Assembly: GCA_963662175.1 (NCBI GenBank)
Contig: OY759214.1
Location: 8,370,001 to 8,434,000 of the forward strand
Direction: 5' to 3'
Length of the DNA stretch: 64,000 nt
From: Aradus depressus
Taxonomy: Eukaryota > Arthropoda > Insecta > Hemiptera > Aradidae
A program made the translations under genes and the position numbers. Of the stretch, positions 34,291 to 52,600 are shown in pieces. Position 1 is the first letter of the stretch, and each line of letters starts with the position of its first letter. A model generated the notes under the pieces. It did not search any database. It was given only the letters and a program-made list of their open reading frames with translations, and was not told the origin of the DNA.

Positions 34291-34347
34291 ATGGCTCTCT
34301 CCTCTCTCATCGCCAAACTCGGCCTCTGTCTCTGTCTCCTTGCCTAT
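34291..34347 (+). CDS. first coding exon encoding a signal peptide
   Basis: A CTCACCATGG start context is followed by 19 codons giving MALSSLIAKLGLCLCLLAY, then a consensus GTAAGT splice donor at 34348 in phase 0. A short first exon holding only the signal peptide, behind a TATA box, is typical of insect secreted-protein genes such as cuticular or digestive proteins. I cannot tell which family, since no second exon is visible. If the gene continues rightwards, the minisatellite at 34478 and the whole Polinton would lie in its first intron. Confidence 0.6.
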
Positions 34348-34477
34348 GTAAGTATACCATAATCATTGACTAGTTAAGTCGCTCCCAGGCTTAAAAACTT
34401 ATTAATAAGAACTAATTTTCATAAAACTCTAATAAGCTCCCTAATAACATATAGGTATATACTAGGAGCAAAGTAAG

Positions 34478-34565
34478 GAGTCAGCTAGTATATGCCAGGC
34501 AATGGTCGGCAAATCAGCTAGTATGTTCCTGGCAACGGTAGGCACCTCAGTAAGTATGTTGTTAG
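34478..34565 (+). repeat. short CAGCTAGTATG minisatellite
   Basis: Two and a half units of TCAGCTAGTATGTTCCTGG-CAACGGTAGGCACC type, the same motif as at 31570. It ends 47 bp before the Polinton. Confidence 0.8.
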
Positions 34566-34612
34566 TAAGTAGACCGACGCGTTGAAATTCCGGCCGTGAT
34601 CACGTACCTAGG

Positions 34613-34943
34613 AGTAGTATAGAAATGTATGTCCTGGGACACCGATAACGATCAAGGGACTTAGCGACGTCACAGAATGAAGTTTGGGGGTGTGTCCGCC
34701 CCATCCTGGCACGCTGATTGGCTGACAGGCGAGATAACATGCTTAGCTACGTCACAGGACTTGATATTTCAAGCCCAATGTCCCAGGACATACATCCGGG
34801 TTTTGAGGAATTTGTGTCCTAGAAAAGTAAGGAATGCGTCCCAGAACATACACCTATGTATTTTCAATGGGGATAGATAAGATGTTTGTAAACAAGTCAA
34901 TAAAAACAGATTAGAAAAAATGCAATTCATTATTTTTAATTGG
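34613..34943 (+). repeat. left terminal inverted repeat of Polinton
   Basis: 331 bp beginning AGTAGTATAGAAATG. It contains a 17-bp inverted pair, ATGTATGTCCTGGGACA at 34625-34641 and its complement at 34779-34795. It also has two direct copies of CTTAGC[G/T]ACGTCACAG at 34660-34675 and 34742-34757. A 67-codon open frame inside is present in both repeats and is probably chance. Confidence 0.95.
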
Positions 34944-36080
34944 ATAGATAACGGAGTCTAGTTGGTAAACAATAGTAAAAACACTATTTGCTTCCTTATT
35001 ATGAATGGGATGTTTGTAAAATAGTTTTTTTAAAGGCAGTAGTAAAAGATAATAGTTCTCATTCATTGATAACTATCTTGTGTACACATTAGAATGAATC
35101 TTCTTGCGTAGGAGTATCTTGAGGGGGGGCGAGTATTGATAAAAATTGCCTATGATGACATTACAATACGTCACTGAGGGCATACTATAATAGTGTTAAC
35201 AACGTCACAGCCCATAACGTAAGAGGGTTAACAAGCTTGTAAAGGTGGGCTTTAGCAAAATCAAGCTTTTTCAAATTACTTAGGAAATAAGGGGATTTTT
35301 TTTATTTGATATCCTGGCATGTAAATTTTCTCCTTTGTGGAGAGTGAAAAAATTGTTTAGAGAGTAACACCGTACAAGAAAGGATCTGAAAATCGTATTC
35401 AGGCTATAGCGAATCAGACAAAAGATGAGTTGTCTTGAAATCAATTTGGGTGCGGAAGACTTAACAGGCGAAAATGATATACGAATCCCGAGATAATATC
35501 AATTGGGAATTAGAGAAGATAGACTGGCATAAAGCATGTAGGCATCTAGTATTTTCTGAAGATTTCATAATTAATCATCAGGACTATATGAGTACTTATT
35601 CATTTCAAGAATGTATCGCATATTTGCGTTAAAATAAATAACATATTAAATTTTTATGTTTTCTTTTTCCATCCTGTACTACTATTAAATTTCGCGGAGG
35701 TTATGAGTAATTTAAGCATTTTGTGATAAAGTATTTATTGAATTATATTTACATATACATTATGTTTCAAAAAAACGCTTTAACAATTTTTATTGAAATA
35801 TTATCAATTATACATATACATATAATTTATACAAAAATTAATTACACAGAGTTAATAATATATACTTAATGTTATGAGATTATTTGATGCTCTGAGAATA
35901 CAAATAACATTCATAGCGCTGTGGTTAGCCTATTACATTGAATATTATGTAGCTATGATGCTCAATGTAATAAGTTCGCTAACAGCGCTGTGAATGTTAT
36001 TTTTTTTTTATAATACACTGTATTTGGAGAAAATTTAAAATAATATACTTTTAACATTTATCATAATAAAAAAACGTTGA
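34944..36080. other. non-coding left arm of Polinton
   Basis: About 1.1 kb with no gene. It has two more ACGTCAC motifs (35168-35174, 35202-35208) and a hairpin at 35903-36001. Confidence 0.6.
35903..36001. repeat. 99-bp imperfect hairpin
   Basis: AATAACATTCATAGCGCTGT at the left pairs with ACAGCGCTGTGAATGTTATT at the right. Inner pairing of TTACATTGA with TCAATGTAA leaves a loop of about 20 bp. It lies 80 bp beyond the 3' end of the dUTPase gene, where it could act in RNA 3' end formation or be a tiny insertion. Confidence 0.85.
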
Positions 36081-36512
36081 TTAATTGCCAGATGAACCAA
36101 AACCAAGAACACCTCTTGGTGTTTCTGGCATATTTTCAATGGAAGGCAATTCAATAATAGCAGGAATTGTAATTTGTTCACAAATTAGCTGCGCTATTTT
36201 CATTTTGCATGTAACCATAAAGTCCATATCATTATTGTTTATTACTATTATCCCGATATTGCCGGTGTAGTCATAATCGATTACACCTGCCCCAATATCA
36301 ATGTTTTGTAAAGACAATCCACTCCGAGGTGCGATTCTACCATAATGTCCTTTTGGCAAAATAATTCGAAGATCGGTTGAAATTAATCTTCTTTGCCTGG
36401 GGGGAATGGTCACCGTGTAGGCACTATATAAATCCATACCTGCAGAGAGTGGAGTGTTTCGAGTAGGTGAAGTGGCGAGGGGGGATAATTTCTGAAATAA
36501 TAATTGACTCAT
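36081..36512 (-). CDS. dUTPase
   Basis: A 143-residue trimeric dUTPase, which hydrolyses dUTP to dUMP and pyrophosphate, keeping uracil out of DNA during replication. All five family motifs are present in order: AGMDLYSA (24-31), APRSGLS (61-67), GAGVIDYDYTGNIGII (74-89) with the catalytic Asp, KIAQLI (104-109) and the flexible C-terminal RGVLGFGSSGN (133-143). Length is normal for the family. A TATATAAAAA stretch about 80 bp upstream (near 36590, minus strand) may be its TATA box. It is the first gene inside the left arm. Polintons do not always carry it, and it suggests replication in cells with low dTTP pools. Confidence 0.97.
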   Translation of the reverse strand: MSQLLFQKLSPLATSPTRNTPLSAGMDLYSAYTVTIPPRQRRLISTDLRIILPKGHYGRIAPRSGLSLQNIDIGAGVIDYDYTGNIGIIVINNNDMDFMVTCKMKIAQLICEQITIPAIIELPSIENMPETPRGVLGFGSSGN

Positions 36513-37022
36513 ATTTTAACTAACAAACTTGACAATATTATACGGGCTAAAATATTAAAGTCAATAGGGGATAGTATAAGTTTTTATATACAGTATATAT
36601 ACGCTTAGATAACGCATTTTAAAAATATTATTGTTGATAACATATCAAATGATTGAGAAGGATGTTGAAATATGGATAAAATAGAAAATGCATTCTTATA
36701 ATTGTAAAGATAAAAAGTTGGAAAACAAGGAGGAATTTGATGATATTAAAGTGCATAGGTTAAGGGAAAAATATCAGTAAACAAGGCCGAATAACACACA
36801 TTTCGTAAACAAATTAAGAAACATGCTGAGGCTGATTGCAACGAGTTCAAAGGTTATTGTCAGTATTAATTTGGTAAAAAAGATTAGAAAATGCTTCCTA
36901 TTATTTTATAATCATTTAGATAAACATTGAAAAACAGTTGAAGGAATTTGAAGATATCTATTAAAAAGTGCATAGTCCAAAGAAAAATAACAATAACAAG
37001 TTTAAGAGATATCCGAAAGTAG
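36513..37022. other. divergent promoter region of Polinton
   Basis: AT-rich spacer between the leftward dUTPase gene and the rightward 270-residue gene. TATATATAC and TATATAAAA motifs face left around 36585-36605. Confidence 0.5.
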
Positions 37023-37062
37023 TATATAAACTCGTTGAAAATGAACTAATATCATCAGTTTG
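37023..37062 (+). promoter_or_regulatory. TATA and TCAGT initiator of Polinton early gene
   Basis: TATATAA at 37023-37029 and TCAGTT at 37055-37060, with the initiator A at 37057, are 34 bp apart. This is the arthropod RNA polymerase II core promoter arrangement, so host machinery probably transcribes the gene. Confidence 0.7.
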
Positions 37063-37111
37063 TTTTGTGTTCCCAAGTTTTCTTTCACTGTGCCAATTAT
37101 TCTCCTTCAAC

Positions 37112-37188
37112 GTGAGTATTCTTTGAATTGACTTAGAAATTTTATTTTAATAATATACAATATTACAATAAGAATTTTTTGTTCATAG
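37112..37188 (+). other. predicted 77-bp intron in 5' leader
   Basis: A GTGAGT donor at 37112 and a TTTTTTGTTCATAG acceptor ending at 37188 place the splice one base before the ATG at 37190. This is inference from splice consensus only. Confidence 0.55.
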
Positions 37189-37189
37189 T

Positions 37190-38005
37190 ATGGCTGCTGT
37201 ACCAATTTTATCCCTGATAATACGGATTTTAGAATTGGGGCTCACTACAATCCGTGAATGGGATTCTGTTTTATTAATATTAAAAAAAGGCCCGAAAATA
37301 TTAGTGGATAGTGGGAAAACAAGTATCATTGATAATTTATTCAATGTACTAATTGAATATAAATGTAAAATTGAAGACAGCCAACAGGCGCAATATTTTG
37401 ACTTGGGTGCTGAAGAGGTCTGCTTAGACGTAATCAAGGAACTTGTCGCCGGGTCCATCGAAGTATATGATTCTAAAAATGCCGACGAAATTATTAAAAT
37501 GATTAGTCGGCTATTGGTTAAGCAGCAAAAATCTATTAAGCGTAAAGTTATTTCTAAAATTTCTGCCACTAGCTCTATACCTTGTATGAGTAGAACTAGT
37601 TCAGAAACAATCACTATTGACGAGAACTCTGATTTATCCGATTCAGAGGATATTTTAGATTTTTTATTCGAAAGTAAGAAAAGGAAATTGGAGGAAGTTT
37701 CGATCCGGCAAAGTTTAACAATTAATTCGAATGGAAATTCCCATAAAATTAGTACACCCGGAGAAGCAAATGGGACACATTTGGTTAAAATCGAAATAAG
37801 TGATTTAAAAGATTTGAGTGATATTCCATCAAACGACTGGTGGAAGCATGTTAATAAAAAATTATATTTTTTAACAGACTCGAAAAAAGATACTTTATAT
37901 AAAGATTTGAATGGGATGATTAAACTGGCCGGATCAAAACTTCTGAAAATTCCAGGAGTTACAAAAGAAACCAAAAGCTTGTATGGATTTAGGCGTTTTT
38001 AATAA
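37190..38005 (+). CDS. unrecognised Polinton protein, 270 residues
   Basis: I do not recognise a family. The first 110 residues look helical and hydrophobic. Residues 130-185 are a low-complexity Ser/Asp/Glu region (SETITIDENSDLSDSEDI) followed by a basic KKRK cluster that may be a nuclear signal. The last 80 residues again look ordered, with DWWKHVNKKLYF at about 219-230. It has its own TATA/initiator promoter and leader intron and precedes the polymerase gene by about 140 bp. Its position suggests an early regulatory or replication accessory role; by position alone a terminal-protein role is possible but unsupported. The frame stops with TAA at 38000-38002. Confidence 0.7.
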
Positions 38006-38147
38006 GTTATAATTTTTGTTGTTTATTCCATATAGAATCATATATTCGTATATAAAACATAATAGAATCATATTTTTACTTTTATAGATTTTTGATACTT
38101 ATACATTATTAAAACTAGTGTTGGTTTTTTTTAATATAGGGAATTAT

Positions 38148-41100
38148 ATGGAGGATATTGTTTTATCTGAAATGGAAGACGAGATGGAAAATGTAAAAAT
38201 TTATAATGAATTCGTTAAGTTAAAAAACGAAAACATTTTTTATTTGAAAAATAGTATAAATATAAGTAGTATAAGTTTAGTTATTAACACGTATTATTAC
38301 AAGTTTTTGCATATTTTATCTAATTTAATAGGTATTTATAAAAAAATTAATATATCTTTAAAAGTAAATTGTGAATATAAAAATATTAATGATAATATTA
38401 TGTATAATATTACATATCCTATTAAGAAATCTATTCAAAAAATAGAAGATATAGATGTTACATTACAAAATATCAAGTCTACCTTACATTTTTTTGATTT
38501 AAAAAATCGTATGCAGGATTATGTATTTCAAAAAGTTAACAATATTTTATTAATTGTTTCACCTAATGTTGATATTAATACATTGGATTTAACTGATGAC
38601 AGTGATTATAGTGATGTTGATGATGAGAGTGATAATGACGAATCTATTATTGTACAAAATGCTAATTTTAAAAAAAAGAAGGATAGGCTTCAATTTTGTA
38701 ATATAAATAATAAATTTATAGAAATTGAAAATGCATTTAAATGCAATTTACAAACTTTTTATGTGAAAAATACCGATTCAAGTTTTAAAGATATTCAACT
38801 TTTATTATTATATTATAAAAATGAAATGAAGCATATATTAGAAAATGCTTTGAGAAAACATGGGTCAATTAAGTTCAATTTATTACTTGAGGCAACATAT
38901 TTTAAACCTGTAATAAATGAATATCAAAATAGATCATTTAAAACAAATAATTCTATATTATATAAAGAAACAAATATAAATAATTTATTATTAAAATGTT
39001 TTGAAAAATTGAAAAATGAGGAGGCTAATTATGAAGGGCAAAAAAGTGGGTGGTCATTATTCCATATCGATGGTATAATGATACGAATTAATAAATTTAC
39101 CCCATTAAGAGGTTCATCTTATTTAAAACTTCCAAAAAAATTAGCTAGCAAAAAAGCTATTATAAATCCTAAAAATAATGATATATATTGCTTCAAATGG
39201 GCAATATTAAGTCGGTATGTAAACGGCCCTCATAGGGAAAGGGTAAATCACAGATATTTTGCACTAGAATCAAAATTCAATTTTAGCGGTATTAATTTCC
39301 CAGCTCCGATACAACAAATATCGAAATTTGAAAAAAATAATAAGGTATCCATAAATATTTATGCCTATAATGACAATATGAATATTTATCCTTTAAAAGT
39401 TACAACAAAAGAGATGAAGAATCATTTTGACTTACTTCTTATCACCAATAATGAAATATTTCATTATGCATACATCACGTCTTTATCAAAAATAGTAAGA
39501 TCTCAAATTACATGTAATACTAGGAAAATACATATTTGTAAAAGATGTTTAATATTTTTCCATTCGAAACAACGGTTAAACAGCCATAAAAAAGAATGCT
39601 GCGAACATAAGCCTGTTCGGGTGATAATGCCTGATTCGTTTAATAACGAAATTAATAAAGAATATTTACCTATATTGAAATTTAAAAATTATCATTACCA
39701 ATATAGATTACCAATAGTAATATATGCCGATTTTGAGAGCATCTTAAAACCTTATAGTACATGTTTACCTTCTGAAACAATATCATTTACAGAATCTAAA
39801 CAATTACATGAACCAATGAGTTTTTGCATATATTTTGTTATTGATGAAAGCGTGCCAGAACTTATTCGATCTAAATTACCTAATGAACCATATTTGTATC
39901 GAGGGCTTGACGCATCCAAGCATTTCATAAGATATATTGTTAAAATGTGTAACTATATAGGCCAATTATGTAGTATAAATGTTAAATTAATTATGTCCAA
40001 TGAAGATACGCATAGGTTTGAAAACAGTTTGAAATGCGAAATGTGCCAAAGAAATTTTAGTGATATTTGGTCGCCGGTTAAAGACCATGACCATTTAACA
40101 GGCCAATACCGTTCTGCATTATGTTCATCTTGCAATCTTAAACGAAAAAAACAGACTTATATTCCAGTAATTATTCACGGCTTTTCTAATTATGACAGTC
40201 ATTTCATTGTCAGAGAATTAGGATATGATATAGAAAATATTCGTGTAATTCCTAATACTAGAGAAAAATATATAACAATTTCAAAATCACTTAACGATGA
40301 AATGCAAATACGGTTTATTGATAGTTATCGTTTTATGCCTAGAAGTTTAAATGAATTAGCACAAAATTGCACTAAAGACCAATTCTATCATTTACAAAAA
40401 GTATTTTCGCATAATGATTTTCCTATTATTACACGTAAAGGTATCTATCCTTATGAGTATACAGATAATTGGGATAAATTAAAGGAAACACAATTACCTC
40501 CTAAAGAATGTTTTTATAGTTCTCTTACAGATGATCATATATCTGATGAAGATTATGATTATGCTAAAACCATTTGGAGCCATTTTAATATACAAAATCT
40601 TGGAGAATATTCTGATTTATATTTAAAAATTGACGTCATGCTTTTATGCGATATATACGAGAATTTTAGGCAATTGTGTATAGATAATTATGGCTTAGAT
40701 TGTGCCCATTATTTTAGTATTCCGGGATATACATTCGATGCAATGTTAAAATTTACAGGTGTTGAATTGGAACTTTTAACAGATTATTCAATGTATCTAT
40801 TCTTAGAACGTGGTATAAGAGGGGGGATATCAATTTGTAATAAAAGATATAGTGTTGCGAATAATCCATACCTTGGCCACTTATATGACTCTAATAAACC
40901 AACATCTTATTTGATGTATTTAGATGCAAATAATTTATATGGATGGGCATTGTCACAGTATATGCCAATATCCAATTTTAAATGGAGAACCAATTTAAAT
41001 CTTAATATTTTGGAACTCCCTGATGATTCTGATATTGGGTATATCTTAGAAGTGGATATAAAATACCCTGAGAAATTACATGATGAACACAATGATTTTC

Positions 41101-42170
41101 CTTTTTTACCTATAAATGAATGTCCCCAAGGTTCTAAATTAAAGAAATTATTGTTAACATTAAAAGATAAAAAAAAATATGTCGTTCATTATCGAAATTT
41201 AAAACAAGCAATGCAAAATGGGCTTATTTTAACTAAAATTCATAGGATTTTACAATTTAATCAATCACCTTTTCTAAAGCCATATATAGACTTTAATACT
41301 CAGAAACGAAAAGAAGCAGAAAATGATTTTGAAAAAGAACTATATAAAAATGTTATTAATTCCATGTTTGGAAAAACCATGGAAAATATACGCAAGCGAA
41401 TTAACTATGAATTAAGTAGTAATCCAAAGCGAGTGCAAAAACTAATTAATAAACCCACATTTCTTGATAGGGTAATATACAATGAATTTTTATGTGCTAT
41501 AGAACTGCAGCAGGAATCTATATTTTTTAATAAACCTATTTATATCGGGTTCAGTGTACTTGAGCTAAGTAAAACATTAATGTATGATTTCCACTATAAT
41601 ATTATTAAAAAAATGTATAAAAATAATGTCACCATAATGTATATGGATACAGATGCATTATTTTATGAAATTATATATCCCGAAAAAAGCGGTGATTTTT
41701 ATAAAGATTTAGTGAGCGATCCTGTGTTTATGAATCATTTTGACACTTCAGATTATCCTCCTTCTCACCCATGTTATTCTATAGTTAATAAAAAAATATA
41801 TGGAAAATTTAAAGATGAATGCGCAAGTATTCCAATTTTAAAATATGTTGGCCTTAGATCAAAATTGTATACTTTTATTAAATTTATAAATGAATGTGTA
41901 TCTAGTGATAAGCTTCCAACTATTATGAAAGTTAAAGGCATTAAGAAATCTGTTGTTAAAAAATCAATTACTTTTGATGATTTTCTAAAATGTTTGAATA
42001 ATCAACATTTAAAATTAAGAAGAGTTATGAATGTAATACGTTCCCAAAAACATATACTTCAAACACTCTCTGTAAATAAAATAGCTCTAGATTTTAATGA
42101 TGATAAGCATTATATATGTGAAAACGGAATTGACACCTTAGCCTATGGGCATTATAAAATTCCAAAATAA
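38148..42170 (+). CDS. pPolB: protein-primed family B DNA polymerase
   Basis: Replicative polymerase of the element, 1340 residues from the ATG at 38148; the frame is open about 10 codons further but without ATG. Exonuclease motif I is YADFES (Asp528, Glu530). Polymerase motif A is DANNLYG (Asp926), motif B has NSMFGK near 1071, and motif C is MDTDAL (Asp1167, Asp1169). A C2H2-like finger (CKRC...H...C, about 463-490) and a CxxC...DHDH...CxxC treble clef like endonuclease VII (about 630-670) precede the polymerase core, as in other Polinton enzymes. Residues 1-440 are AT-biased and poorly conserved, with an acidic run near 155-175. A pyrimidine-rich ...TTTTTTTTAATATAG just before the ATG looks like a splice acceptor, so the leader may be spliced. 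Confidence 0.97.
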   Translation: MEDIVLSEMEDEMENVKIYNEFVKLKNENIFYLKNSINISSISLVINTYYYKFLHILSNLIGIYKKINISLKVNCEYKNINDNIMYNITYPIKKSIQKIEDIDVTLQNIKSTLHFFDLKNRMQDYVFQKVNNILLIVSPNVDINTLDLTDDSDYSDVDDESDNDESIIVQNANFKKKKDRLQFCNINNKFIEIENAFKCNLQTFYVKNTDSSFKDIQLLLLYYKNEMKHILENALRKHGSIKFNLLLEATYFKPVINEYQNRSFKTNNSILYKETNINNLLLKCFEKLKNEEANYEGQKSGWSLFHIDGIMIRINKFTPLRGSSYLKLPKKLASKKAIINPKNNDIYCFKWAILSRYVNGPHRERVNHRYFALESKFNFSGINFPAPIQQISKFEKNNKVSINIYAYNDNMNIYPLKVTTKEMKNHFDLLLITNNEIFHYAYITSLSKIVRSQITCNTRKIHICKRCLIFFHSKQRLNSHKKECCEHKPVRVIMPDSFNNEINKEYLPILKFKNYHYQYRLPIVIYADFESILKPYSTCLPSETISFTESKQLHEPMSFCIYFVIDESVPELIRSKLPNEPYLYRGLDASKHFIRYIVKMCNYIGQLCSINVKLIMSNEDTHRFENSLKCEMCQRNFSDIWSPVKDHDHLTGQYRSALCSSCNLKRKKQTYIPVIIHGFSNYDSHFIVRELGYDIENIRVIPNTREKYITISKSLNDEMQIRFIDSYRFMPRSLNELAQNCTKDQFYHLQKVFSHNDFPIITRKGIYPYEYTDNWDKLKETQLPPKECFYSSLTDDHISDEDYDYAKTIWSHFNIQNLGEYSDLYLKIDVMLLCDIYENFRQLCIDNYGLDCAHYFSIPGYTFDAMLKFTGVELELLTDYSMYLFLERGIRGGISICNKRYSVANNPYLGHLYDSNKPTSYLMYLDANNLYGWALSQYMPISNFKWRTNLNLNILELPDDSDIGYILEVDIKYPEKLHDEHNDFPFLPINECPQGSKLKKLLLTLKDKKKYVVHYRNLKQAMQNGLILTKIHRILQFNQSPFLKPYIDFNTQKRKEAENDFEKELYKNVINSMFGKTMENIRKRINYELSSNPKRVQKLINKPTFLDRVIYNEFLCAIELQQESIFFNKPIYIGFSVLELSKTLMYDFHYNIIKKMYKNNVTIMYMDTDALFYEIIYPEKSGDFYKDLVSDPVFMNHFDTSDYPPSHPCYSIVNKKIYGKFKDECASIPILKYVGLRSKLYTFIKFINECVSSDKLPTIMKVKGIKKSVVKKSITFDDFLKCLNNQHLKLRRVMNVIRSQKHILQTLSVNKIALDFNDDKHYICENGIDTLAYGHYKIPK

Positions 42171-42564
42171 AATTATTATATACTATCTGTCGCTTTTTCC
42201 ACAAGTTGAATAAACAATGTAAACATTTTGTTAATCTGTGTTTTTCTATTCCTTATTCCTTTTATTTTTTAATGAAAATATATATATTTGAAGAGTGTGT
42301 GTTGTTTATTACCTATTTTTCTTTATTTTTATAATTAAATAGTATGAAGCAGTACAGGTGGTGCAAATGAAATAAAAACAAAAGTTGCTTTTTAGGTTTT
42401 TATTGGTAATAAAAGTTACAGAAAGCAAAAGAGAAATAATACAAAAAATATTTTATTCATATAAGATTACACAAGAGTTACAAAAAATAGTAAAAAAGTA
42501 TTAATGTATATATTTTGTAAATTTTTAAAAACATAAATATAAACGCATTAAAAAGCCAATTCAT
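42171..42564. other. convergent 3' region between pPolB and capsid gene
   Basis: About 390 bp, very AT-rich. Plus-strand AATAAA-like signals (near 42210) and minus-strand TTTATT complements (near 42398 and 42451) are suitable for polyadenylation of the two converging transcripts. No gene seen. Confidence 0.5.
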
Positions 42565-43773: not shown

Positions 43774-43949
43774 GATTGTGCCGTGGATACAATGTATCCT
43801 AAAGAGTGTAGAAACTGCCGATTCTTAGGGGTTAAATATTTCTGCTGATGATTCCTTTGATCAGGATGCAGTAATCTTGATTCCGCAAAGTTTTGAGTAT
43901 TAATGACCGTTTGTCCTAATGCTTTTTGGCTTTTAAAAACTAACCCCAT
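43770..43949 (-). CDS. small ORF between penton and major capsid genes, 59 residues
   Basis: The frame starts at ATG 43949 and ends at TGA 43772-43770, sharing ATGA with the start of the capsid gene. It is in the same frame as the penton gene: after the penton stop TAG there are five sense codons and then this ATG. The peptide begins MGLVFKSQKALGQTVINTQN and ends in FLHSLGYIVSTAQS; it is basic, with no membrane segment. Tight packing between two virion genes and the overlap argue for a real gene. Alternatively it is a read-through extension of the penton protein. Family not recognised. Confidence 0.65.
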   Translation of the reverse strand: MGLVFKSQKALGQTVINTQNFAESRLLHPDQRNHQQKYLTPKNRQFLHSLGYIVSTAQS

Positions 43950-43964
43950 CCCTTCTTTTCTGCC

Positions 43965-44705
43965 CTAAATGCGCTTCAATTGTAAATAAATCAGCGAGTA
44001 TTCGTTCTGGAAATCGATTAATTTCCCGTTTTGATTTTCAATTCTTAATTCTATTTTTTCAATTTTTGTTGTATTCAGTGGATAAAAAACAATATTCTTA
44101 GGTATTTCTATTATTTTGTAACCACTGCCAACGTTCGGAGTGAACTGATGAATAATATGATCTTCAATACCGTTTTTATAGGAACCTCGAGCAATGTTAC
44201 ATACGAACCGTATAACGTTCACAGAAGTAATATTTATATTGTTTTCAGAGACGTGCCATTTATTAGGTTTCAATAGGACATTTTTGAAGCCTAATAGGGG
44301 GGCAATAGTATTCAATTTCTTAAAATCTATCCATTTATTAGATAAAATTTCGCATTTTGCTGTTGTCTTATCAACACGAATACGTAGCTGAACATCATCT
44401 ACTAAATTACTACTTGTTAAATATCTTTCAATTTCATTGTTTAGCCTTGATTCGATGTCACTAATTTCATACGCCCCTGTAGGAAGTTTAACTGCATGCG
44501 CCCGAATTTTACCAACATTTTCTTCAGGATTTTCATCATAAAAGTATAATTTATTATTTTTCCCTTCCACCACATTGGGAATTGTATTGTAGCCGAAGAA
44601 ATTGACAAATCCTACATACCAACCTCCTTCACTTAAATCTATTGGTTCATCAAAATAACTAGTGAGGAAAGAGGTACGCCCATCTAGAAAAAATCCAAAG
44701 GACAT
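43965..44705 (-). CDS. penton-like minor capsid protein
   Basis: 246 residues. The Polinton minor capsid (single jelly-roll) pattern is visible. There is a short N-terminal GWYVGFVNFFGYNTIPN strand pair (28-44) and LPTGAYEISDIESRLNNEI (74-92). LLGFKNVLL follows at about 136-144, and CNIARGSYKNG (168-178), GSGYKIIEIPKNIVFYPLN (193-211) and a C-terminal LIDFQNEYSLIYLQLKRI come later. It would form the pentameric vertices. It lies between the protease and the hexon-like protein, the usual Polinton order. Stop is TAG with an open in-frame continuation. Confidence 0.8.
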   Translation of the reverse strand: MSFGFFLDGRTSFLTSYFDEPIDLSEGGWYVGFVNFFGYNTIPNVVEGKNNKLYFYDENPEENVGKIRAHAVKLPTGAYEISDIESRLNNEIERYLTSSNLVDDVQLRIRVDKTTAKCEILSNKWIDFKKLNTIAPLLGFKNVLLKPNKWHVSENNINITSVNVIRFVCNIARGSYKNGIEDHIIHQFTPNVGSGYKIIEIPKNIVFYPLNTTKIEKIELRIENQNGKLIDFQNEYSLIYLQLKRI

Positions 44706-44729
44706 TGTTACTCTAACACTTAACTTCAG

Positions 44730-45098
44730 CTAATGACTGAATGACCAAAGAAATTGCAAACATAAATGCCCGCAATTTGACGTATTTGGTTTTTGATAAC
44801 GCTTATGATTGTAATAGATTTCAGCATGAGGCCCTAAAAACTTTATTAACTCCAAAGGAGGCCTAAGATTTCCAAAACTATCAAAATATTGTATTTTGTT
44901 CTCAAGTTTAAAATAACACACCCAATGTGTGCCAGGACCATTTGTGCCATCTAAATTAATTATAGCAGACTCTAATTTTTTAGCAGTTTTTGGTAACGCG
45001 TCCCTCATAAACACCCCCCTAAAATATTTAATACCCAATTTTTTGGCGTATAGCATTAAATCAAAATTACTTAAAGCTCGTTGTGGAATACTCTCCAT
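44730..45098 (-). CDS. adenain-like cysteine protease (PRO)
   Basis: A 122-residue C5-type maturation protease that in Polintons and adenoviruses cleaves capsid precursors. The catalytic residues are His58 in THWVCY, Asp73 in YFDSFG and Cys109 in NCGHLCLQFL. Gln102 sits seven residues before the Cys, as the oxyanion Gln does in adenain. The protein is much shorter than adenovirus protease (about 200) but typical of Polintons. Its ATG overlaps the stop of the PLA2 gene by one base (TAATG), suggesting coupled translation on a shared RNA. Confidence 0.94.
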   Translation of the reverse strand: MESIPQRALSNFDLMLYAKKLGIKYFRGVFMRDALPKTAKKLESAIINLDGTNGPGTHWVCYFKLENKIQYFDSFGNLRPPLELIKFLGPHAEIYYNHKRYQKPNTSNCGHLCLQFLWSFSH

Positions 45099-45610
45099 TA
45101 TTCGGTGTTTTTTTTTACCACAACATCATAAACACCGCGTTTTTTCTTTTTTGCAATGCCGCAAATAAGAGAACCGACCGCAGATTGAATACCATTTAAA
45201 TTACTCCTTATAATTTTTTTCGGCTTCCCCCCCTTTTTTTTACCCCTTTTGGTTTTTAAACCAGAACCAATTTTACTTTTTGCTTTCATAATGTTGGTAA
45301 CCACCCAAGCAGCAGATTTTTCGCCTATACTAGAATCAGGTGCTTTAACGCGCTCCCAAGCAGTTTCAGCCAATGTTTTATCTGCAGCAGCTCTTCTTGC
45401 TGATTCTTTAAATTTAGAATAAGCTATGTCATGTTGTTTACAAGCAGCATCTAATTTATTAATTCCGGTGTCCCCCCGCTTCAATCTTTTTTCAAGTTTA
45501 GTTCCCGGCCCACAAAATTGATATCCTCCAGGAATATGTAATTCTACAGGTAATTTGTCAATAACCCGATTCACAATATCTCCGAAAATACCACTTCCTC
45601 TTCTTTGCAT
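45098..45610 (-). CDS. phospholipase A2-domain capsid-associated protein
   Basis: 170 residues. The N-terminal half is a parvovirus VP1/Polinton type PLA2 domain: calcium loop YQFCGPGT (30-37) and active site CKQHDIAYS (His60, Asp61, Tyr64). It would hydrolyse phospholipids during escape from the endosome. Residues 120-140 are Lys/Gly-rich (KTKRGKKKGGKPKK) and fit a DNA-binding or nuclear targeting tail. A C-terminal GIQSAVGSLICGIAKKKKRG stretch resembles a basic core peptide. Its location next to protease and capsid genes supports a virion role. Confidence 0.92.
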   Translation of the reverse strand: MQRRGSGIFGDIVNRVIDKLPVELHIPGGYQFCGPGTKLEKRLKRGDTGINKLDAACKQHDIAYSKFKESARRAAADKTLAETAWERVKAPDSSIGEKSAAWVVTNIMKAKSKIGSGLKTKRGKKKGGKPKKIIRSNLNGIQSAVGSLICGIAKKKKRGVYDVVVKKNTE

Positions 45611-45679
45611 TTTTTTACTCGACTATTAACTGTAATTAGTAAAAATAATTTGCTATGTTTAAATCTACTTAGTGAATGA

Positions 45680-46945
45680 TTAGTTTTTCTTTTGTCTCCC
45701 TATTATTATACCTGCTTCTTCCAATTCTTCAATAATCGATTGAATTTCATTTCCATGGCCTGTATGTCCAGCTTTCTGCGAGGCTACCAATACTTGTAAA
45801 CGTTCACACAATTCATTAACATCATCATAATAAATATAATTCGGCTTTTTATCGGTAACAGTCATCATTCCACTTCCTAACGACATTTCCATATCATTAT
45901 CACTGCTATAATCATGAATGGACCGACGATATCGAGACTTAGGTTTTTCTCTTGGTGTTACCTTTTTGTTTGGGAAAAGTTTTGCTATAATATTAATATA
46001 TTTATAACCCCTGTTCGTTTTAATTCTTTTCGTAGCTGAATTACCTTGTCTGTGGGCGTTTGTATTTTTTAAAATATCTGCATAGACCTCAAGGTCGTTA
46101 TCTGTATATAGGTACTCATTAGGCCGAGATTTAAACAGAAGTTCATATAAGCCAGGAGATCCTTCATATTTAACATTGTTAATAATGAAATCGTCCTCTT
46201 CTAATTCGATTTGTGAATCTCCAATTATAAATTTATCACCATCGATACGGACCCCATACACTTTATCTACATTGTCCTCCTTAATGAGTTCGATGAAATA
46301 TTTCTTTGATATTTTCCCCTTGAAGTTTTCTTTTATCCATTTAACAGCTTTATTTTTACCTTCGTCCGATTCTAGCTCTAACATAGGATAAGACGATTCA
46401 AAAACTTCTTCATCTTCGTTATTATCATTGGTACTATCTTCATTTATTGACTCGGCTTCCATGTTATTATCACTCTCTGATTCTGTGTCCATAGGACTTT
46501 CAGGTATGAATGGGGCACGCTTGGATAATATCTCTTCTTCATCAGTAATTTTTCTTTTGTTTGCAGAACGCCGTTGAGCTTTATTTGTAAATGTAGGCTG
46601 CTTTTTTAACGATTCATTTTCTCTCTTAACTCCTCGACTCAATAGTACTTTACTAGGTTTAGGGTATTCATCATTAAGAATATTTTCTATTTCCTCTTTA
46701 CCAGCGGTTCTTTTCTTGGCACTTTCATTCGGTTTTTTCACATAAGAAATAATATTAGTATCTACATCTCTTTTCCTTTTCAGAGGATTAGACGATGCTT
46801 CAATAATTGCAGTTGTAATTGGTTTAAATTTTTTCTCGTACAGCTCCTCCGTTTCCATAACATCGTGTTGGAGGGCACGATGCTTTTTTTTAATATCTTC
46901 ACTGATTTTTTTAATTTCCTGAGTGATCTTCTCTTGGTTATTCAT
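45680..46945 (-). CDS. DUF8207-like Polinton protein
   Basis: 421 residues from the ATG at 46945. The N-terminus is charged and probably coiled-coil (residues 4-40). A long disordered acidic and basic region follows, with SESDNNMEAESINEDSTNDN near 155-175. An ordered core at about 215-330 contains GDKFIIGDSQIELEEDDF, YEGSPGLYELLF and YADILKNTNAHRQG. The pattern 'G-K-x-I-G...PGLYELL...Y-x-x-IL-x-x-T-N-A' is what I know as DUF8207, repeatedly found beside Polinton capsid genes. Its function is not established. A GSGMM motif near 372 might be a protease cleavage site (inference). Confidence 0.7.
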   Translation of the reverse strand: MNNQEKITQEIKKISEDIKKKHRALQHDVMETEELYEKKFKPITTAIIEASSNPLKRKRDVDTNIISYVKKPNESAKKRTAGKEEIENILNDEYPKPSKVLLSRGVKRENESLKKQPTFTNKAQRRSANKRKITDEEEILSKRAPFIPESPMDTESESDNNMEAESINEDSTNDNNEDEEVFESSYPMLELESDEGKNKAVKWIKENFKGKISKKYFIELIKEDNVDKVYGVRIDGDKFIIGDSQIELEEDDFIINNVKYEGSPGLYELLFKSRPNEYLYTDNDLEVYADILKNTNAHRQGNSATKRIKTNRGYKYINIIAKLFPNKKVTPREKPKSRYRRSIHDYSSDNDMEMSLGSGMMTVTDKKPNYIYYDDVNELCERLQVLVASQKAGHTGHGNEIQSIIEELEEAGIIIGRQKKN

Positions 46946-46987
46946 GACTAGCAAATAAAGAACGCCTGTAATACCTCACTTTATTTA

Positions 46988-47299
46988 TTACTTTTTATTA
47001 TGCTTCCTCCTTCTCCTCTTCTTTGTATTTACATTTATATTTATACCTTTACCACCAAATTGGGTTTCACCATAAGGCCACGGATTTAAATAAACACCCT
47101 TTCCGTTTTTTTTATTTTTTCTAAAAGCATTGATTAAACTTGAGGTGCCTCCCATAAGGCTCCCTAAAGCAGAAATACCTGCTATAATAGGCACTAAAGG
47201 TAGAGCACCACCTTTTTTCTTTATTTTTTTAGGATGTTTCAAATTATATATTTTTCTTTTTGACAAAGTGCATTTTTTAGATTTTTTTCGCTTTGCCAT
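46988..47299 (-). CDS. small basic core-like protein
   Basis: 103 residues, about 35 percent Lys/Arg, with both ends strongly basic (KRKKSKK at the start, KKRRRRKHNKK at the end). Between them lies a Gly/Ala-rich hydrophobic helix, GGALPLVPIIAGISALGSLM (30-49). This arrangement is typical of adenovirus pX/pVI-like and Polinton core peptides that condense DNA or disturb membranes. The GG and GKG sites could be protease targets. Assignment rests on composition and neighbourhood. Confidence 0.7.
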   Translation of the reverse strand: MAKRKKSKKCTLSKRKIYNLKHPKKIKKKGGALPLVPIIAGISALGSLMGGTSSLINAFRKNKKNGKGVYLNPWPYGETQFGGKGININVNTKKRRRRKHNKK

Positions 47300-47392
47300 T
47301 ATTGTTTATTTGCACGCTAACAACTGTCTTTACCTCTCTTTTTAGCTGACCAAATTATACTGATTGATTTTATGCAAAGGTTTTTCCTTTAT

Positions 47393-48160
47393 TTATAATT
47401 TCTTATTCAATGGAGGTATAATTAAAAAAGTATCAAAACTAGATCTATAACGTCCATTGTTTATACAACGTTCTTTATCTATTACTAGGAAACCATTACC
47501 GGCACAGTTCCATGCCTTTAAACATATGTCTCTGAATTTATTAAATGTCATGTCACTGTTCACATGATCATCATAAATGTGCCGTAAATTCCGATCGTCC
47601 TGTTTGAACGCTACCAGCAGATTAACATTATCACGAATCAGTTGTTTAGGAATACTACTATATGTTTGGCCCAATAAAAAAACATCTATATCCTTATGGC
47701 GAGCCGTAGTAAAATAATTCCGTATATTATTCTGTCGTTCACATGCAATGTCATCAAAAATGAAAATAGACCTGGTTTTAGCTTCATTCATTGAAAATAC
47801 TTCATCATTTTCTGAGAACTCATAATACCCTATACATTTCACTTTATCTGTTAAAATATGTTTCAATAATTTATATTTAGGCTGGTATAGAGACTTGGAA
47901 AAAATATAGACATTTTCAAAACGTAGCCCATTTTCATTAAACAGTAAATTCAACATCAAATTAGTTTTTCCTGAATTAGATGGTCCACAAATTATACACC
48001 TAATATTTGAAGGTAATAAATTACCATGCCGTTTAAATTTCGTGGTCATATTTGTTTTTTCACAACTTAATTTATCAAAATTTACAATGTTCAATTTTTG
48101 CTTTTGTTTAATAGTCTTTATACAGGGCTCCATACTATATGAAAGAAGTAAACTATCCAT
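47393..48160 (-). CDS. A32-type DNA packaging ATPase (FtsK/HerA)
   Basis: 255 residues from the ATG at 48160, just after the integrase stop. An in-frame ATG at 48205 would overlap the integrase by 35 bp. Walker A GPSNSGKT is at 59-66 and Walker B SIFIFDDI at about 131-138, ending in two Asp. A following QTYSSIPKQLIRDN segment (about 189-202) fits the sensor and arginine region of A32-like enzymes. It would pump the genome into capsids. It sits immediately downstream of the integrase in the same direction. Confidence 0.94.
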   Translation of the reverse strand: MDSLLLSYSMEPCIKTIKQKQKLNIVNFDKLSCEKTNMTTKFKRHGNLLPSNIRCIICGPSNSGKTNLMLNLLFNENGLRFENVYIFSKSLYQPKYKLLKHILTDKVKCIGYYEFSENDEVFSMNEAKTRSIFIFDDIACERQNNIRNYFTTARHKDIDVFLLGQTYSSIPKQLIRDNVNLLVAFKQDDRNLRHIYDDHVNSDMTFNKFRDICLKAWNCAGNGFLVIDKERCINNGRYRSSFDTFLIIPPLNKKL

Positions 48161-48170
48161 AGGCTGGCAT

Positions 48171-49106
48171 TTATATAATGGCGCTTCTAGGAATCCAAGA
48201 ATCAAACTTAGGGTTCATACCAAGCCATCTGACATATACTTTATCCTTTTTTGATTTTAATACTTTTTCTACTAAATATAAATCACCGTATTTCACTTTA
48301 CTCAATTCTTGCTCGTAAAACCCCCCTTTTAAAATATCGCTATTCCAATCTGACAATGTGTATGTAATAGGGTAGGTTTGGTTAATTTTATATATGTTGA
48401 ATATCTCATTAGTCCAATTAGGTTTATAACCTTTTGTAAATATCCTTTTTTCTCGGCTTATCCTAACCTTATCATTAACTTTAAACTTTGGCTTATTTTT
48501 ACTAAATTGTCTAATTTTTACTTTTAAGTTATTGCTAATTCGCTTTAAAACTTCTTTCTCGTTTTCACTATTTACTTCATTCGGCCTCATTCCAATAGTT
48601 CTATGCAATGTATTATTGTATTGCTTTACCAAATCAAATATACTATTAATCCACTTAAAATTTCCTTGTTCAGTAAATTTACACCACATATTTGACTTTA
48701 AAGTCCGATTAAACCGTTCAACAATGGACGCCTTTTTACCAGAAAAAGTAGAATAATGATTTACATTGAAAGATGTTAATAACTTTTTCACGAATCGGTT
48801 ATACCACTCCTTACCTTCATCAGTCTGAAAGTGCTTCATAGAATGCTTTTTGAGTATAGGTTTTAGAGCTTTTACAATTTCAGAACTACTTTTATTTTTC
48901 AAAGGAACTGCATAAGCAAATTTACTGAAACAATTTATTATAGTCATTATATACTTATAACCCTGATTATATTTCGAATATGGAATCATTTCCACAAGAT
49001 CTCCTTGATACAAATCATTTATTCCTTTTATCTCTACGGTTCGAGTTGGAAAATATTTCCTTTTTTGCTTATGCAATTCTTTAGCTAATTCTGCTCTCAC
49101 ACCCAT
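48171..49106 (-). CDS. retroviral-type integrase with chromodomain
   Basis: 311 residues. RVE core acidic residues are Asp36 (YQGDLVEM), Asp96 (FQTDEGKEW) and Glu130 (SIVERFNRT). An SH3-like domain with KVNDKVRISREK lies around 210-225. The C-terminal 50 residues form a chromodomain ending VYVRWLGMNPKFDSWIP, which may direct insertion to particular chromatin. It would join the element's ends to the host chromosome. An HHCC zinc finger is lacking, as is usual in this family. Confidence 0.96.
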   Translation of the reverse strand: MGVRAELAKELHKQKRKYFPTRTVEIKGINDLYQGDLVEMIPYSKYNQGYKYIMTIINCFSKFAYAVPLKNKSSSEIVKALKPILKKHSMKHFQTDEGKEWYNRFVKKLLTSFNVNHYSTFSGKKASIVERFNRTLKSNMWCKFTEQGNFKWINSIFDLVKQYNNTLHRTIGMRPNEVNSENEKEVLKRISNNLKVKIRQFSKNKPKFKVNDKVRISREKRIFTKGYKPNWTNEIFNIYKINQTYPITYTLSDWNSDILKGGFYEQELSKVKYGDLYLVEKVLKSKKDKVYVRWLGMNPKFDSWIPRSAII

Positions 49107-49201
49107 CTCTTAACTAATACTGGATTCTTCATACAAAACATATTATCTTATAAATGATAATAGGATGAATAAAAAACAAAAATAGTGTAACAAATAATTT
49201 A

Positions 49202-49528
49202 TTACAAATTCATATACAAAAACTCGCAATCTGGGTTTGAATTATAATGTTCAATAATTGGATCGTCATCAGAGTCCCAATTGTTTAATATAAGGCCGCA
49301 AACAATACATTCTGTATCATCACCATCTCCAGTATAGAAAAATCCTGCTTTCACTAAATTTTCTCGTGTAGGCAAGCTCTTGGGGAAACATTTGAATGAT
49401 TCATGCATCATTTTCAGCATCTTTTCCTTACAATTTTTGGCTTTCAAATAGAGGCGGCAGGTTAAACGCAGGCTCATGATGATACTACCAATGATGAATA
49501 TTGAACAATAAAAAATATATTCCATCAT
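49202..49528 (-). CDS. membrane-anchored BIR-domain (IAP-like) protein
   Basis: 108 residues. Residues 45-106 form a single baculoviral IAP repeat: LVKAGFFYTGDGDDTECIVC followed by the zinc ligands Cys74, Cys77, His94 and Cys101 in exact CxxC-x16-H-x6-C spacing, with the DDDP-x-x-EH signature. IAP-type BIR domains bind caspases or IAP antagonists and suppress cell death. Residues 4-24 are a hydrophobic segment that could anchor the protein in a membrane. No RING domain. It lies upstream of the integrase in the right arm. A TTTTATAAAG box is about 25 bp before the ATG. Alternatively it could be a survivin-like remnant captured from the host. Confidence 0.92.
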   Translation of the reverse strand: MMEYIFYCSIFIIGSIIMSLRLTCRLYLKAKNCKEKMLKMMHESFKCFPKSLPTRENLVKAGFFYTGDGDDTECIVCGLILNNWDSDDDPIIEHYNSNPDCEFLYMNL

Positions 49529-49575
49529 TCGGAAATTTGTTCTTCTTTATAAAACGAATGGGCAACTACTTATAA

Positions 49576-49758
49576 CTATCTGGCGTTTTTATCTTTTATA
49601 GACAACATTTGCATTTTTTTCATAATCATATTATTTTCATACAATGTGATTTGTTTCTTCAACAAGTGTAATTCATTTAAATATTTATCGATTCTATACT
49701 TTTTATTTTCATAAATTGTCAACGACATCCTCGCCCTCAAAAAGGATAATCCATTCAC
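49576..49758 (-). CDS. small ORF, possible coiled coil, 60 residues
   Basis: Overlaps the next gene by 50 bp in another frame; an internal ATG at 49728 would shorten it to 50 residues. The middle (KYLNELHLLKKQITLYENN) has heptad-like Leu/Ile spacing. Not recognised; may be chance. Confidence 0.35.
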   Translation of the reverse strand: MNGLSFLRARMSLTIYENKKYRIDKYLNELHLLKKQITLYENNMIMKKMQMLSIKDKNAR

Positions 49759-49975
49759 GAAGAGGCTGTAGTCGATTTTCCACTTCTCGCAAGCCGATTA
49801 GCTGATTATTAACTATCTCTAAAAGCACTGAATTATTGTTTAATATTGCCACACGATCTTCAGGAAAAAAATCTTTTATAAGAAATAATAATTGCGCCAC
49901 AGGATATGCATAACTTGTTATAACAAATGTGCATTTAAACATTTGCTCTTCTTTTACTCCATTTACACATACCAT
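49709..49975 (-). CDS. unrecognised 88-residue Polinton protein
   Basis: Starts MVCVNGVKEEQMFKCTFVIT. Mixed hydrophobic and charged without signal peptide or membrane helix. A TCAGTT initiator-like motif lies about 35 bp upstream of the ATG with a GATAATAAG box about 30 bp further, so it may have its own promoter. Family unknown; the position suggests an accessory early gene. Confidence 0.5.
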   Translation of the reverse strand: MVCVNGVKEEQMFKCTFVITSYAYPVAQLLFLIKDFFPEDRVAILNNNSVLLEIVNNQLIGLREVENRLQPLREWIILFEGEDVVDNL

Positions 49976-50189
49976 GTTTCACTAACTCGCTGAACAATAT
50001 AATTACAACTGATTGCTTCAATGAGGGTAGCATCTACTTATTATCAGCAACTATGACGTAAAAGGTTCTAAGATAAGAATAATTATGCAATTAATAGGAA
50101 ATACTCATAAACTTCAACGGCACAGCCCCCCCTATCGTTAGCATAAGACGCCGTAAAAACGGCAATTTAACGAGTACCTCAACAAGGAC

Positions 50190-50382
50190 ATTAACGTAAA
50201 TTAACGTAATCGTTAAGTTAAATTAACGTGGCGTTAACCTAAATTAACGTGACGTTAACCTAAATTATCATAACTTTAACCTAAATTAACGTAACGTTAA
50301 CTTAAATTAACATAGCGGTAACCTAAATTGGCGTAGTCTTAACCTAAAGTAACGTAAATTTAACCAACATAACGTTAATGTA
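50190..50382. repeat. 21-bp palindromic tandem array
   Basis: About eight units of CGTTAACCTAAATTAACGTGA, each with TTAACGT and ACGTTAA facing each other across the unit junctions. It lies in the only long gene-free stretch of the right half of the Polinton (49976-50454), between divergently conserved accessory genes. Confidence 0.9.
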
Positions 50383-50454
50383 TTGTAGGTAACGAAATGA
50401 TATAGTTTTAAAAATTTAAAGATGTTTTAATTATTTTTTGAAAATTTACATGGA

Positions 50455-51063
50455 TTACCATTCCATTATTTTCTTATTATCTTTTTTACACTGTTTAAGA
50501 AGTATTTGCAATCGCTGATTTTTCCTTTTTTCACGTTTTTCTATTATATATTTATCTTTTTCTAGCGAAAGTAAAGTATTATTCATACGTGTAATAAAAT
50601 TATAGAGCTCAGTAATTTTATTATTATATTGACGGATATTTTCCTTCAAGTCTTCTTGCATTTTCGCATAGCCATCTAAACGCTCATAACATTTATCATC
50701 ATCCATTTCGCTACTAGTATCGGGATTTTTACCATCAAGTTTCTCCTCTTCAGAGGTCCCCTCTTCAGAGGTCTCCTCTTCAGAGGTCTCCTCTCTCAAA
50801 ATACCATCTTCTACGTCAGCTATTATGTCATCCTCATCCTTCGTACTTGAAACATTTTCATGAAGCAATTTATTAACCATACCATAACTGATATTAAAAA
50901 GAGGATGATTCTCCAAATATGGCGTGTACTGAATTTTCACTTTCGTATCTGCCACCCCATGAGTTATATGAGTAGACCCATTAGGCCAATGCTGAGAAGT
51001 AAAATTCGAATATCCTATCATTGGTATAGATAAGGCAATTATTAAAAATAGCATACTTCTCAT
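50455..51063 (-). CDS. secreted acidic coiled-coil protein, 202 residues
   Basis: Start taken at ATG 51063, giving a clear signal peptide (MRSMLFLIIALSIPMIGYS). NxS/T sites in the following segment suggest glycosylation. Residues 95-115 carry a degenerate EETSEE repeat three or four times. Residues 135-195 are a Lys/Glu-rich heptad region likely to form a coiled coil. No membrane anchor. TATAAAAA at 51128-51121 on the minus strand is a likely TATA box. Not recognised; it could be a secreted or virion surface factor. Confidence 0.6.
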   Translation of the reverse strand: MRSMLFLIIALSIPMIGYSNFTSQHWPNGSTHITHGVADTKVKIQYTPYLENHPLFNISYGMVNKLLHENVSSTKDEDDIIADVEDGILREETSEEETSEEGTSEEEKLDGKNPDTSSEMDDDKCYERLDGYAKMQEDLKENIRQYNNKITELYNFITRMNNTLLSLEKDKYIIEKREKRKNQRLQILLKQCKKDNKKIMEW

Positions 51064-51320
51064 ATCTGCTGTGATAGACAAGAGAACTGGAAATAATTGA
51101 AGTTATCAGAGAAACAATCCTTTTTATATCATGAAGTCACGTGTATATAAGCTGCTTCAAACATAATTCATTTGCTACATTGATCCCCCGCGCCATGCAT
51201 ATCACGATCACATTCATCTTTCCATTTATACAAAATCTATTACTATCATCATCTATTTAAAAAAAATATCATTTTATCATCATTTAAATAATATACAAAG
51301 GCTTTAATATATTTAAAAAA

Positions 51321-51530
51321 TTAATCTTCAGAAAATTGTTCATAGCAATATATTTTATTTTGGATGTAATACTCTTCTAAATCTTTTTTTATTGTGCCAG
51401 GAATATTTATTTTATCAATATCTGCCAATTCTGAAATAATCTTATTTTTAATAACATATATTGTTGCTATCTCTTTCAAACTTTTAACATTATTATTTTT
51501 TTCATTCCTTTCCTCCATCTTAGAAAGCAT
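51321..51530 (-). CDS. short ORF, 69 residues, uncertain
   Basis: From ATG 51530 the frame is lysine and glutamate rich (MLSKMEERNEKNNN) with a helical look. It has no recognised domain and no clear promoter. It is the outermost possible gene before the right terminal repeat. Confidence 0.3.
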   Translation of the reverse strand: MLSKMEERNEKNNNVKSLKEIATIYVIKNKIISELADIDKINIPGTIKKDLEEYYIQNKIYCYEQFSED

Positions 51531-51893
51531 ATTTTTTATTTTATCTGACTTACAATAACTAATATTTCGAAAAAAAATGTTCAATCTTTATGCACTTGAT
51601 TTTATTGAAAAAAAGCTTGGCTTTGCTAAAGCTCACCTCAACAAATATTATGTTTTTCTTTCCTGTATATCATTCCTTTTTTTTGAACGTGTATACATGG
51701 GTTATTTAGAGTATGTCATCTCTCTAATGCATGTACATACACACTATTCCTTACCTCTTATTGGTGGGGGGGGCTAGGAATTACTACTATTGACTCATAA
51801 TCTAATTTCATGAATGGGGAATTAAATACGTGACACACCCCTCATGATACGTCACAAAGACTTGTCTACTATCCACTGACTGATAATATTTAG
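51531..51893. other. non-coding right arm of Polinton
   Basis: Contains an ACGTCAC motif at 51849-51855 like those of the left arm. A 66-codon plus-strand frame at 51577-51777 is not convincing. Confidence 0.4.
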
Positions 51894-52224
51894 CCAATTA
51901 AAAATAATGAATTGCATTTTTTCTAATCTGTTTTTATTGACTTGTTTACAAACATCTTATCTATCCCCATTGAAAATACATAGGTGTATGTTCTGGGACG
52001 CATTCCTTACTTTTCTAGGACACAAATTCCTCAAAACCCGGATGTATGTCCTGGGACATTGGGCTTGAAATATCAAGTCCTGTGACGTAGCTAAGCATGT
52101 TATCTCGCCTGTCAGCCAATCAGCGTGCCAGGATGGGGCGGACACACCCCCAAACTTCATTCTGTGACGTCGCTAAGTCCCTTGATCGTTATCGGTGTCC
52201 CAGGACATACATTTCTATACTACT
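51894..52224 (-). repeat. right terminal inverted repeat of Polinton
   Basis: Reverse complement of 34613-34943; I find no mismatch by eye. The outermost bases are TATACTACT, and similarity stops sharply beyond 52224 and inside 51894. Confidence 0.95.
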
Positions 52225-52359
52225 AACGAGTTTATAAAACTTTGGAAAATACTTACTTCTCAAATGGAATAAGAAGTTGTCTTGCCACACTACAGTGTCA
52301 TCCTCTGTGGCTTATCACCAATCACTGCAAGGTTCGTACAAACTAACCTAATGAAAAAA

Positions 52360-52600
52360 GTAGTCTAGTAATTCTCATATTTTGTGTCGATACTTTCATT
52401 ATATCGGCAGTTATTAGGATTTTTGAGTTAAGTCTCTCCCTTAAAGCCCTCTTCCCTTTTTTTCGATTTGGCTGAAAAACAATAGTTGTCCTTATGAGAT
52501 TTGGAATTGACAAATGAAATGTTCATTCTATCGGGAGTTATTGTGTTCACAGGCAGAATTTTTTTTTTTCATTTTTGGTATGAGGGGGTCGGAAAATGTT
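52360..52600 (+). repeat. dispersed repeat family A, partial
   Basis: Two sub-units, an expanded T tract, and then the start of the GGTCGGAAAATG block. Confidence 0.75.

Follow-up and report, generated by a model that had tools for sequence, protein, structure and literature searches.

A probably young Polinton/eupolintovirus family in the genome of Aradus depressus, seen through one assembled copy whose left junction is in doubt

Animal Polintons and the Eupolintoviridae (renamed from Adintoviridae, according to the part of PMC12451622 available to us) carry terminal inverted repeats (TIRs), a 6-bp target-site duplication (TSD), a family-B DNA polymerase (PolB), an integrase, an A32-like ATPase, an adenain-like protease, a double-jelly-roll (DJR) major capsid protein (MCP), and a penton. 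In vertebrates, intact Mavericks are described in the available part of PMC8097293 as 12.7-24.6 kb long, with TIRs of 46-1447 bp, 6-bp TSDs, as many as 38 intact copies in a genome, and core genes under purifying selection. For insect samples, contigs of Drosophila-associated adintoviruses (13.3-14.6 kb) with PolB, integrase, capsid, protease, and FtsK genes have been presented, with host and integration left uncertain in the portion of PMC8363768 at hand. Within a 64,000-nucleotide stretch of the Aradus depressus genome (contig OY759214.1, positions 8,370,001 to 8,434,000; hereafter the window), positions 34613-52224 hold a 17,612-bp element bounded by TIRs, which is a Polinton/eupolintovirus (formerly adintovirus). 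It encodes an rve integrase, a family-B polymerase, an adenain-like protease, an A32/FtsK ATPase, and, by predicted structure, a DJR MCP and a jelly-roll penton, and the 6-bp TSD is present in its family. It shares size range, TIRs, 6-bp TSDs, intact copies, and purifying selection with the Mavericks, from which it differs in that their hosts are vertebrates, and it is longer than the Drosophila-associated contigs. Compared with the Eupolintoviridae, it has many near-identical copies in one genome, a BIR protein, phospholipase A2 (PLA2), and dUTPase together, and an end-duplicated copy. The gene set is the one by which the family is defined; what is new is the exchange of ends and the existence of palindromic relatives, rather than the element as such. 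In our reading, held at a probability of about 0.88, the window contains one assembled copy of a young family of this kind, with a left junction most probably mis-joined to a flank from chromosome C2.

The two TIRs are the same, in inverted orientation, at 331/331 positions, which bears out what the original prediction had judged by eye, and the sequences part soon beyond; 338-bp arms form the longest inverted repeat in 33500-53500. The element is AT-rich, with a GC fraction of 0.235-0.337 in 2-kb blocks inside it and of 0.324-0.597 in the rest of the window. We counted 14 open reading frames (ORFs; 88-1340 aa) as genes, omitting a 91-aa ORF that overlaps ORF270 on the opposite strand; ORF270 and PolB lie on the plus strand and the other twelve on the minus strand (Table 1). 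As predicted, the polymerase, integrase, ATPase, protease, and both capsid-type genes are uninterrupted in the window copy, and the dUTPase, PLA2, and BIR protein said to accompany this virion set each have a profile match. PolB contains six motifs in order, among them YADFES, YLKIDV, YLDANNLYG, KNVINSMFGK, and MYMDTDA, which we take to be exonuclease and polymerase motifs in the expected sequence. Endonuclease insertions of varied kinds, one candidate for which is listed here, are known in Polinton PolBs (available part of PMC11071308). The protease scores just under its Pfam cut-off (20.4 versus 21.3); a truncated protease was considered and rejected, as the His, Asp, and Cys motifs all lie within its 122 aa. 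At the integrase C-terminus, a chromo-like match is weak (0.028, under the cut-off).

Structure prediction of the capsid candidates, which had been proposed as a check, matched both to the folds anticipated. The penton model (mean predicted local distance difference test score [pLDDT] 94.9; alignment of 40 sequences) has the mavirus penton as its best PDB match (E 7e-10), followed mostly by adenovirus penton bases; the MCP model (pLDDT 85.8; 26 sequences; five models averaging 66-86) matches DJR capsid proteins of iridovirus, PBCV-1, and mavirus (E 4e-16 to 3e-14), and an MCP profile run against PDB sequences had no match. The element has in common with adenovirus and mavirus the penton fold and an adenain-like protease (a weak sequence match), and with mavirus and nucleocytoplasmic large DNA viruses the MCP fold, these fold matches being at only about 10% sequence identity. 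Adenoviruses are not known to carry an integrase. MCP relatives number 1,327 proteins with a top identity of 52%; two of the 120 matches listed are species-named, and both are hemipterans. In IMG/VR, one pattern search had no match, and in another 20 stretches matched the pattern, none of which was confirmed. Our literature search, with the founding adintovirus paper outside it, linked no Polinton with both an inhibitor of apoptosis and PLA2, and no Maverick/Polinton with a BIR domain was found in the papers searched; PMC8905726 and PMC2836289 mention Polintons, Mavericks, and an inhibitor of apoptosis.

Across the genome examined (698 Mb in 74 contigs; chromosomes are called C1, C2, and so on), the terminal 38-mer occurs 43 times with at most 3 mismatches, and its reversed control not once. 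By position and orientation, these termini form 19 inverted pairs (16.0-20.8 kb) and five single ends. Perfect 6-bp TSDs flank 17 of the 19 pairs and differ in sequence between copies, although the one at C4:24.68 Mb lies inside a TA repeat, so that its match is uninformative. TSDs are absent at the window copy (CCTAGG left, AACGAG right) and at the C15 copy, whose terminus lies 30 bp short of a scaffold end and whose flank is the reverse complement of the left flank of the C8 copy. For two copies, paralogous empty sites were found, i.e., repeat relatives whose alignment spans the insertion site: for C10, in a tandem array with units of about 97 bp, and for C7b, in a dispersed repeat also present in the window. 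A separate observation concerns element ends at C14:14601458 and C14:15381494, 780 kb apart, which have the same 400-bp flank inverted (99.75%); this locus is duplicated or mis-assembled.

Gene integrity was followed through a PolB search (37 matches; best 35 of 1,432 candidates scored) and an MCP search (best 103 of 462 candidates scored). PolB is full-length and uninterrupted in at least 13 copies, the window copy included; it has one TGA in C11, begins at residue 143 in C12, is present as pieces (97-100%) in C14 and C4, and is cut by a gap at C2:17.6. Among the candidates scored, 20 of 21 MCP matches (96-100% identity) are free of interruptions, and at C1:17.88 Mb two more fragments (93-95%) come from a broken copy. 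Ten of the 18 other paired copies were read gene by gene as separate pieces. All 14 frames are within 5 residues of the window length in five of them (C1b, C2a, C2c, C3, and C7b). Among the remainder, a deletion puts ATPase and integrase in one frame (C2b), PolB is broken with PLA2 at 159 aa (C4a), PLA2 and ORF421 (C5a) or PLA2 (C7a) are shortened, and dUTPase, ORF270, and part of PolB are missing (C8); ORF202 is 5-10 residues shorter, with its frame kept, in four of the ten. The five full copies are 99.36-100% identical to the window copy over 10-kb pieces, gaps counted, with C1b having 3 mismatches in total over two pieces. Within copies, TIR mismatches amount to 5 of 5,958 positions in 18 pairs, a comparison that leaves out the C14 pair, in which an indel shifts the alignment. 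These sequences point to a family that is probably young, with about twenty near-identical copies and recent movement. Could older insertions instead have been kept alike by gene conversion or by assembly collapse? Some TIR variants occur in identical form on the two ends of one copy, and assembly errors are present (the C15 copy, the C2 gap), as this would predict; however, the 17 copies with 6-bp TSDs of differing sequence, the two empty sites, and lesions that are not the same from copy to copy make it very improbable beside recent spread.

Coding differences were analyzed in 11 copies with the window copy as reference. The 78 variants comprise 32 synonymous and 46 non-synonymous changes (omega 0.43, p 3e-4), of which those in at least two copies (15 and 11, respectively; omega 0.22, p 1.5e-4) point to purifying selection; private variants number 17 and 35 (omega 0.62, p 0.07). 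Constraint between insertions, together with relaxation after insertion, would give such a pattern.

The left junction of the window copy has a different bearing on the age of the insertion. Among the top 11 non-self matches for the 392 bp between the element and the assembly gap, 10 are at C2:17.65-18.55 Mb (94-99%) and cover the ~150 bases farthest from the element; the remaining one is on C4 (86%), and the element-proximal 33-bp tandem unit matches many places. An unpaired element end occurs at C2:17590128, where the flank also ends in the palindrome CCTAGG. This C2 copy is the same as the window copy at 10,000 of 10,000 bases of a first piece and at 930 of the next (10,930 in total, omitting 2,000 bases between the two), and stops at 200 N inside PolB (C2:17603058). 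On these matches, the window left end with its flank would most probably be the right end that the C2 insertion lacks, brought here by an assembly mis-join; the right junction is on C1, and the element sequence itself is hardly in doubt, the doubt applying to its left address. An alternative, which we consider unlikely, is that the missing TSD is biological and that ectopic recombination between the C1 and C2 copies swapped their flanks in a translocation; this would also account for the lack of a TSD, the C2-like left flank, and the sameness of the two copies over the compared bases, but an N gap 392 bp away and a C2 copy halting at an N gap in PolB are signs of unresolved assembly. With a mis-join preferred, the two ends probably come from different insertions, and TIR identity cannot date the window insertion; dating by this route was therefore rejected, and zero differences in 331 bases is a weak clock in any case. 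Of the earlier proposal of very recent integration or ongoing mobility, recent mobility is supported for the family by its copies, TSDs, open genes, and selection, and ongoing mobility is a possibility; the argument from TIR identity fails, given that the left end is most probably that of C2.

Several points weigh against our overall reading. PolB is identified by its motifs, with no DNA_pol_B match in the profile search and no PDB sequence match. The contrast between shared and private variants reaches only p 0.05, omega was computed from 78 variants only, and its reference is the window copy, not an ancestor. Constraint is not seen in ORF270 (0 synonymous versus 5 non-synonymous), protease (1 versus 4), or PLA2 (1 versus 4), nor is that pattern seen in the BIR protein (0 versus 2). 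Lastly, the assembler could have partly collapsed or swapped identical copies, as probably happened at C15 and in the window.

Table 1. Features of the element and of its left flank (window positions)
Feature	Position	Strand	Evidence or remark
Assembly gap, 200 N	34021-34220		392 bp left of element
Left flank, 392 bp	34221-34612		Probably misplaced from C2 (17.6-18.5 Mb)
Left TIR	34613-34943	+	331 bp; first bases AG
dUTPase, 143 aa	36081-36512	-	PF00692, 3e-36
ORF270	37190-38002	+	No curated cut-off passed by any match
PolB, 1340 aa	38148-42170	+	Ordered exonuclease/polymerase motifs
Endonuclease VII-like segment	PolB residues 625-664		PF02945, 1e-6, above cut-off
MCP, double jelly roll, 402 aa	42565-43773	-	PF21738, 1e-90; predicted fold
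Penton (minor capsid), 246 aa	43965-44705	-	Predicted fold: mavirus penton, adenovirus penton bases
Adenain-like protease, 122 aa	44730-45098	-	His/Asp/Cys motifs; best PDB sequence match adenain, E 0.0045
PLA2-like, 170 aa	45098-45610	-	PF08398, 4e-12
ORF421	45680-46945	-	Full length in 9/10 other copies read
Basic 103-aa protein, possibly core protein X-like (weak)	46988-47299	-	Adeno_PX 0.037, under cut-off
A32/FtsK-like packaging ATPase, 255 aa	47393-48160	-	PF04665, 2e-10; GPSNSGKT motif
Retroviral-type integrase, 311 aa	48171-49106	-	rve 2e-9
Single BIR-domain protein, 108 aa	49202-49528	-	PF00653, 1e-19; N-terminal hydrophobic stretch by eye
ORF88	49709-49975	-	
21-bp tandem array, 8.3 units	50191-50365		
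ORF202	50455-51063	-	Signal-peptide-like start, acidic repeat (by eye)
Right TIR	51894-52224	-	331 bp; adjoins C1 sequence

Elsewhere in the window, positions 786-2297 contain an open frame of ~505 aa with an R1-type reverse transcriptase domain, the named matches of which (29-39% identity) are insects, among them a moth, mirid bugs, and wasps, R1 elements being characteristic of arthropods; the right flank contains a 523-bp inverted repeat (57238-57758 and 58222-58744; 96% identical).

The ends of the family members carry a record of their own. Six TIR positions vary among the 18 pairs; variants 24 (2 copies) and 31 (4 copies) are at both ends in every carrier, which indicates that one end is at times copied from the other, and the other four variants are at one end only. 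Variant 243 is carried on the left by two copies whose target sites differ and is absent from the right ends of both, i.e., it was inherited without being transferred to the opposite end, and a model in which each cycle equalizes the two ends was rejected on this ground. In the C8 copy (C8:8249361-8265376), the first 3,058 bp are the inverted right end (window 52224 to 49192; 3 mismatches and 25 gap positions), joined mid-PolB at 39280, and the copy is flanked by CATATG as a 6-bp TSD. In the C12 copy, likewise, the two ends are both of the right type over the 400 bp read, and PolB is without the first 142 residues. Copies of these types probably needed a helper polymerase, unless the change came after insertion. 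End duplication of the C8 type recalls the end-duplication genomes of adenoviruses.

More distant relatives add a second form of symmetry. Another PolB family (45-46% identity; frames of 1230-1252 aa) has no stops in 14 matches among the candidates scored, and occurs as outward-facing pairs at at least five loci and singly at at least four. Between one such pair lies a palindrome with a 73-bp spacer (C1:60499950-60504990). A search with its arm (1,101 bases; best 40 of 205 candidates scored) found full-length inverted pairs at at least 12 further loci (13 in all) plus three incomplete pairs; the arms at C1:97.54 Mb are unequal (99% and 95% to the query). Within 100 kb of the 13 two-armed loci there is no MCP match among the candidates scored, and on C14, incomplete or single arms have an MCP 43-51 kb away. 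A literature search revealed no palindromic Polintons evident by title among the papers listed. As a tentative proposal, less likely than not, eupolintovirus ends would at times be exchanged, one being copied from the other, which would also yield the end-duplicated copies (C8, probably C12), and these would have spread with intact helpers; a related palindromic lineage with two outward-facing intact polymerases, near which no capsid gene was detected, would have reached a dozen or more sites as a satellite of such viruses. MCPs of other families number at least 81 (40-47% identity; 70 uninterrupted), of which 28 are on C14 (16.4 Mb, 2.3% of the genome) against 1.9 expected (binomial p 3e-25, a test in which copies need not be independent). 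C13 extends past 54 Mb though numbered after the 29.7-Mb C12; C13 and C14 may, we infer, be sex chromosomes, with C14 possibly sex-limited.

A cycle can be proposed from this gene set. A transcribed copy would make its own family-B polymerase and be replicated as a linear genome from the terminal repeats, presumably by protein priming, by analogy with the family; ATPase, protease, MCP, and penton would build the capsid of a putative virion, and the integrase would insert daughter genomes, giving the 6-bp TSDs. The BIR protein would probably block apoptosis, PLA2 would probably breach a membrane at entry, and dUTPase would keep uracil out of the AT-rich genome. The gene set, predicted capsid folds, TSDs, near-identical copies, and constraint on shared variants are observed; virions, protein priming, anti-apoptosis, and current activity are inferred. 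Particles of animal Polintons were unobserved as of 2021, according to the available part of PMC8097293. It is possible, though rather doubtful, that these elements are transposons whose movement is confined to the cell, the virion genes being kept with no particles made: every copy found is integrated, no relative was found in IMG/VR, and protease and PLA2 each show the 1-to-4 ratio given above, whereas the MCP is open in 20 of 21 copies, MCP and penton have 2 synonymous and 1 non-synonymous variants each, and the ATPase has 6 and 2.

Ultimately, both the end-swapped copies and the palindromic relatives are relevant to how such elements replicate and may give rise to their own parasites. With its many near-identical copies, complete sets of virion genes, constraint on shared coding differences, and assignable insertion sites, the family makes it testable in one animal whether Polintons of animals are living viruses.

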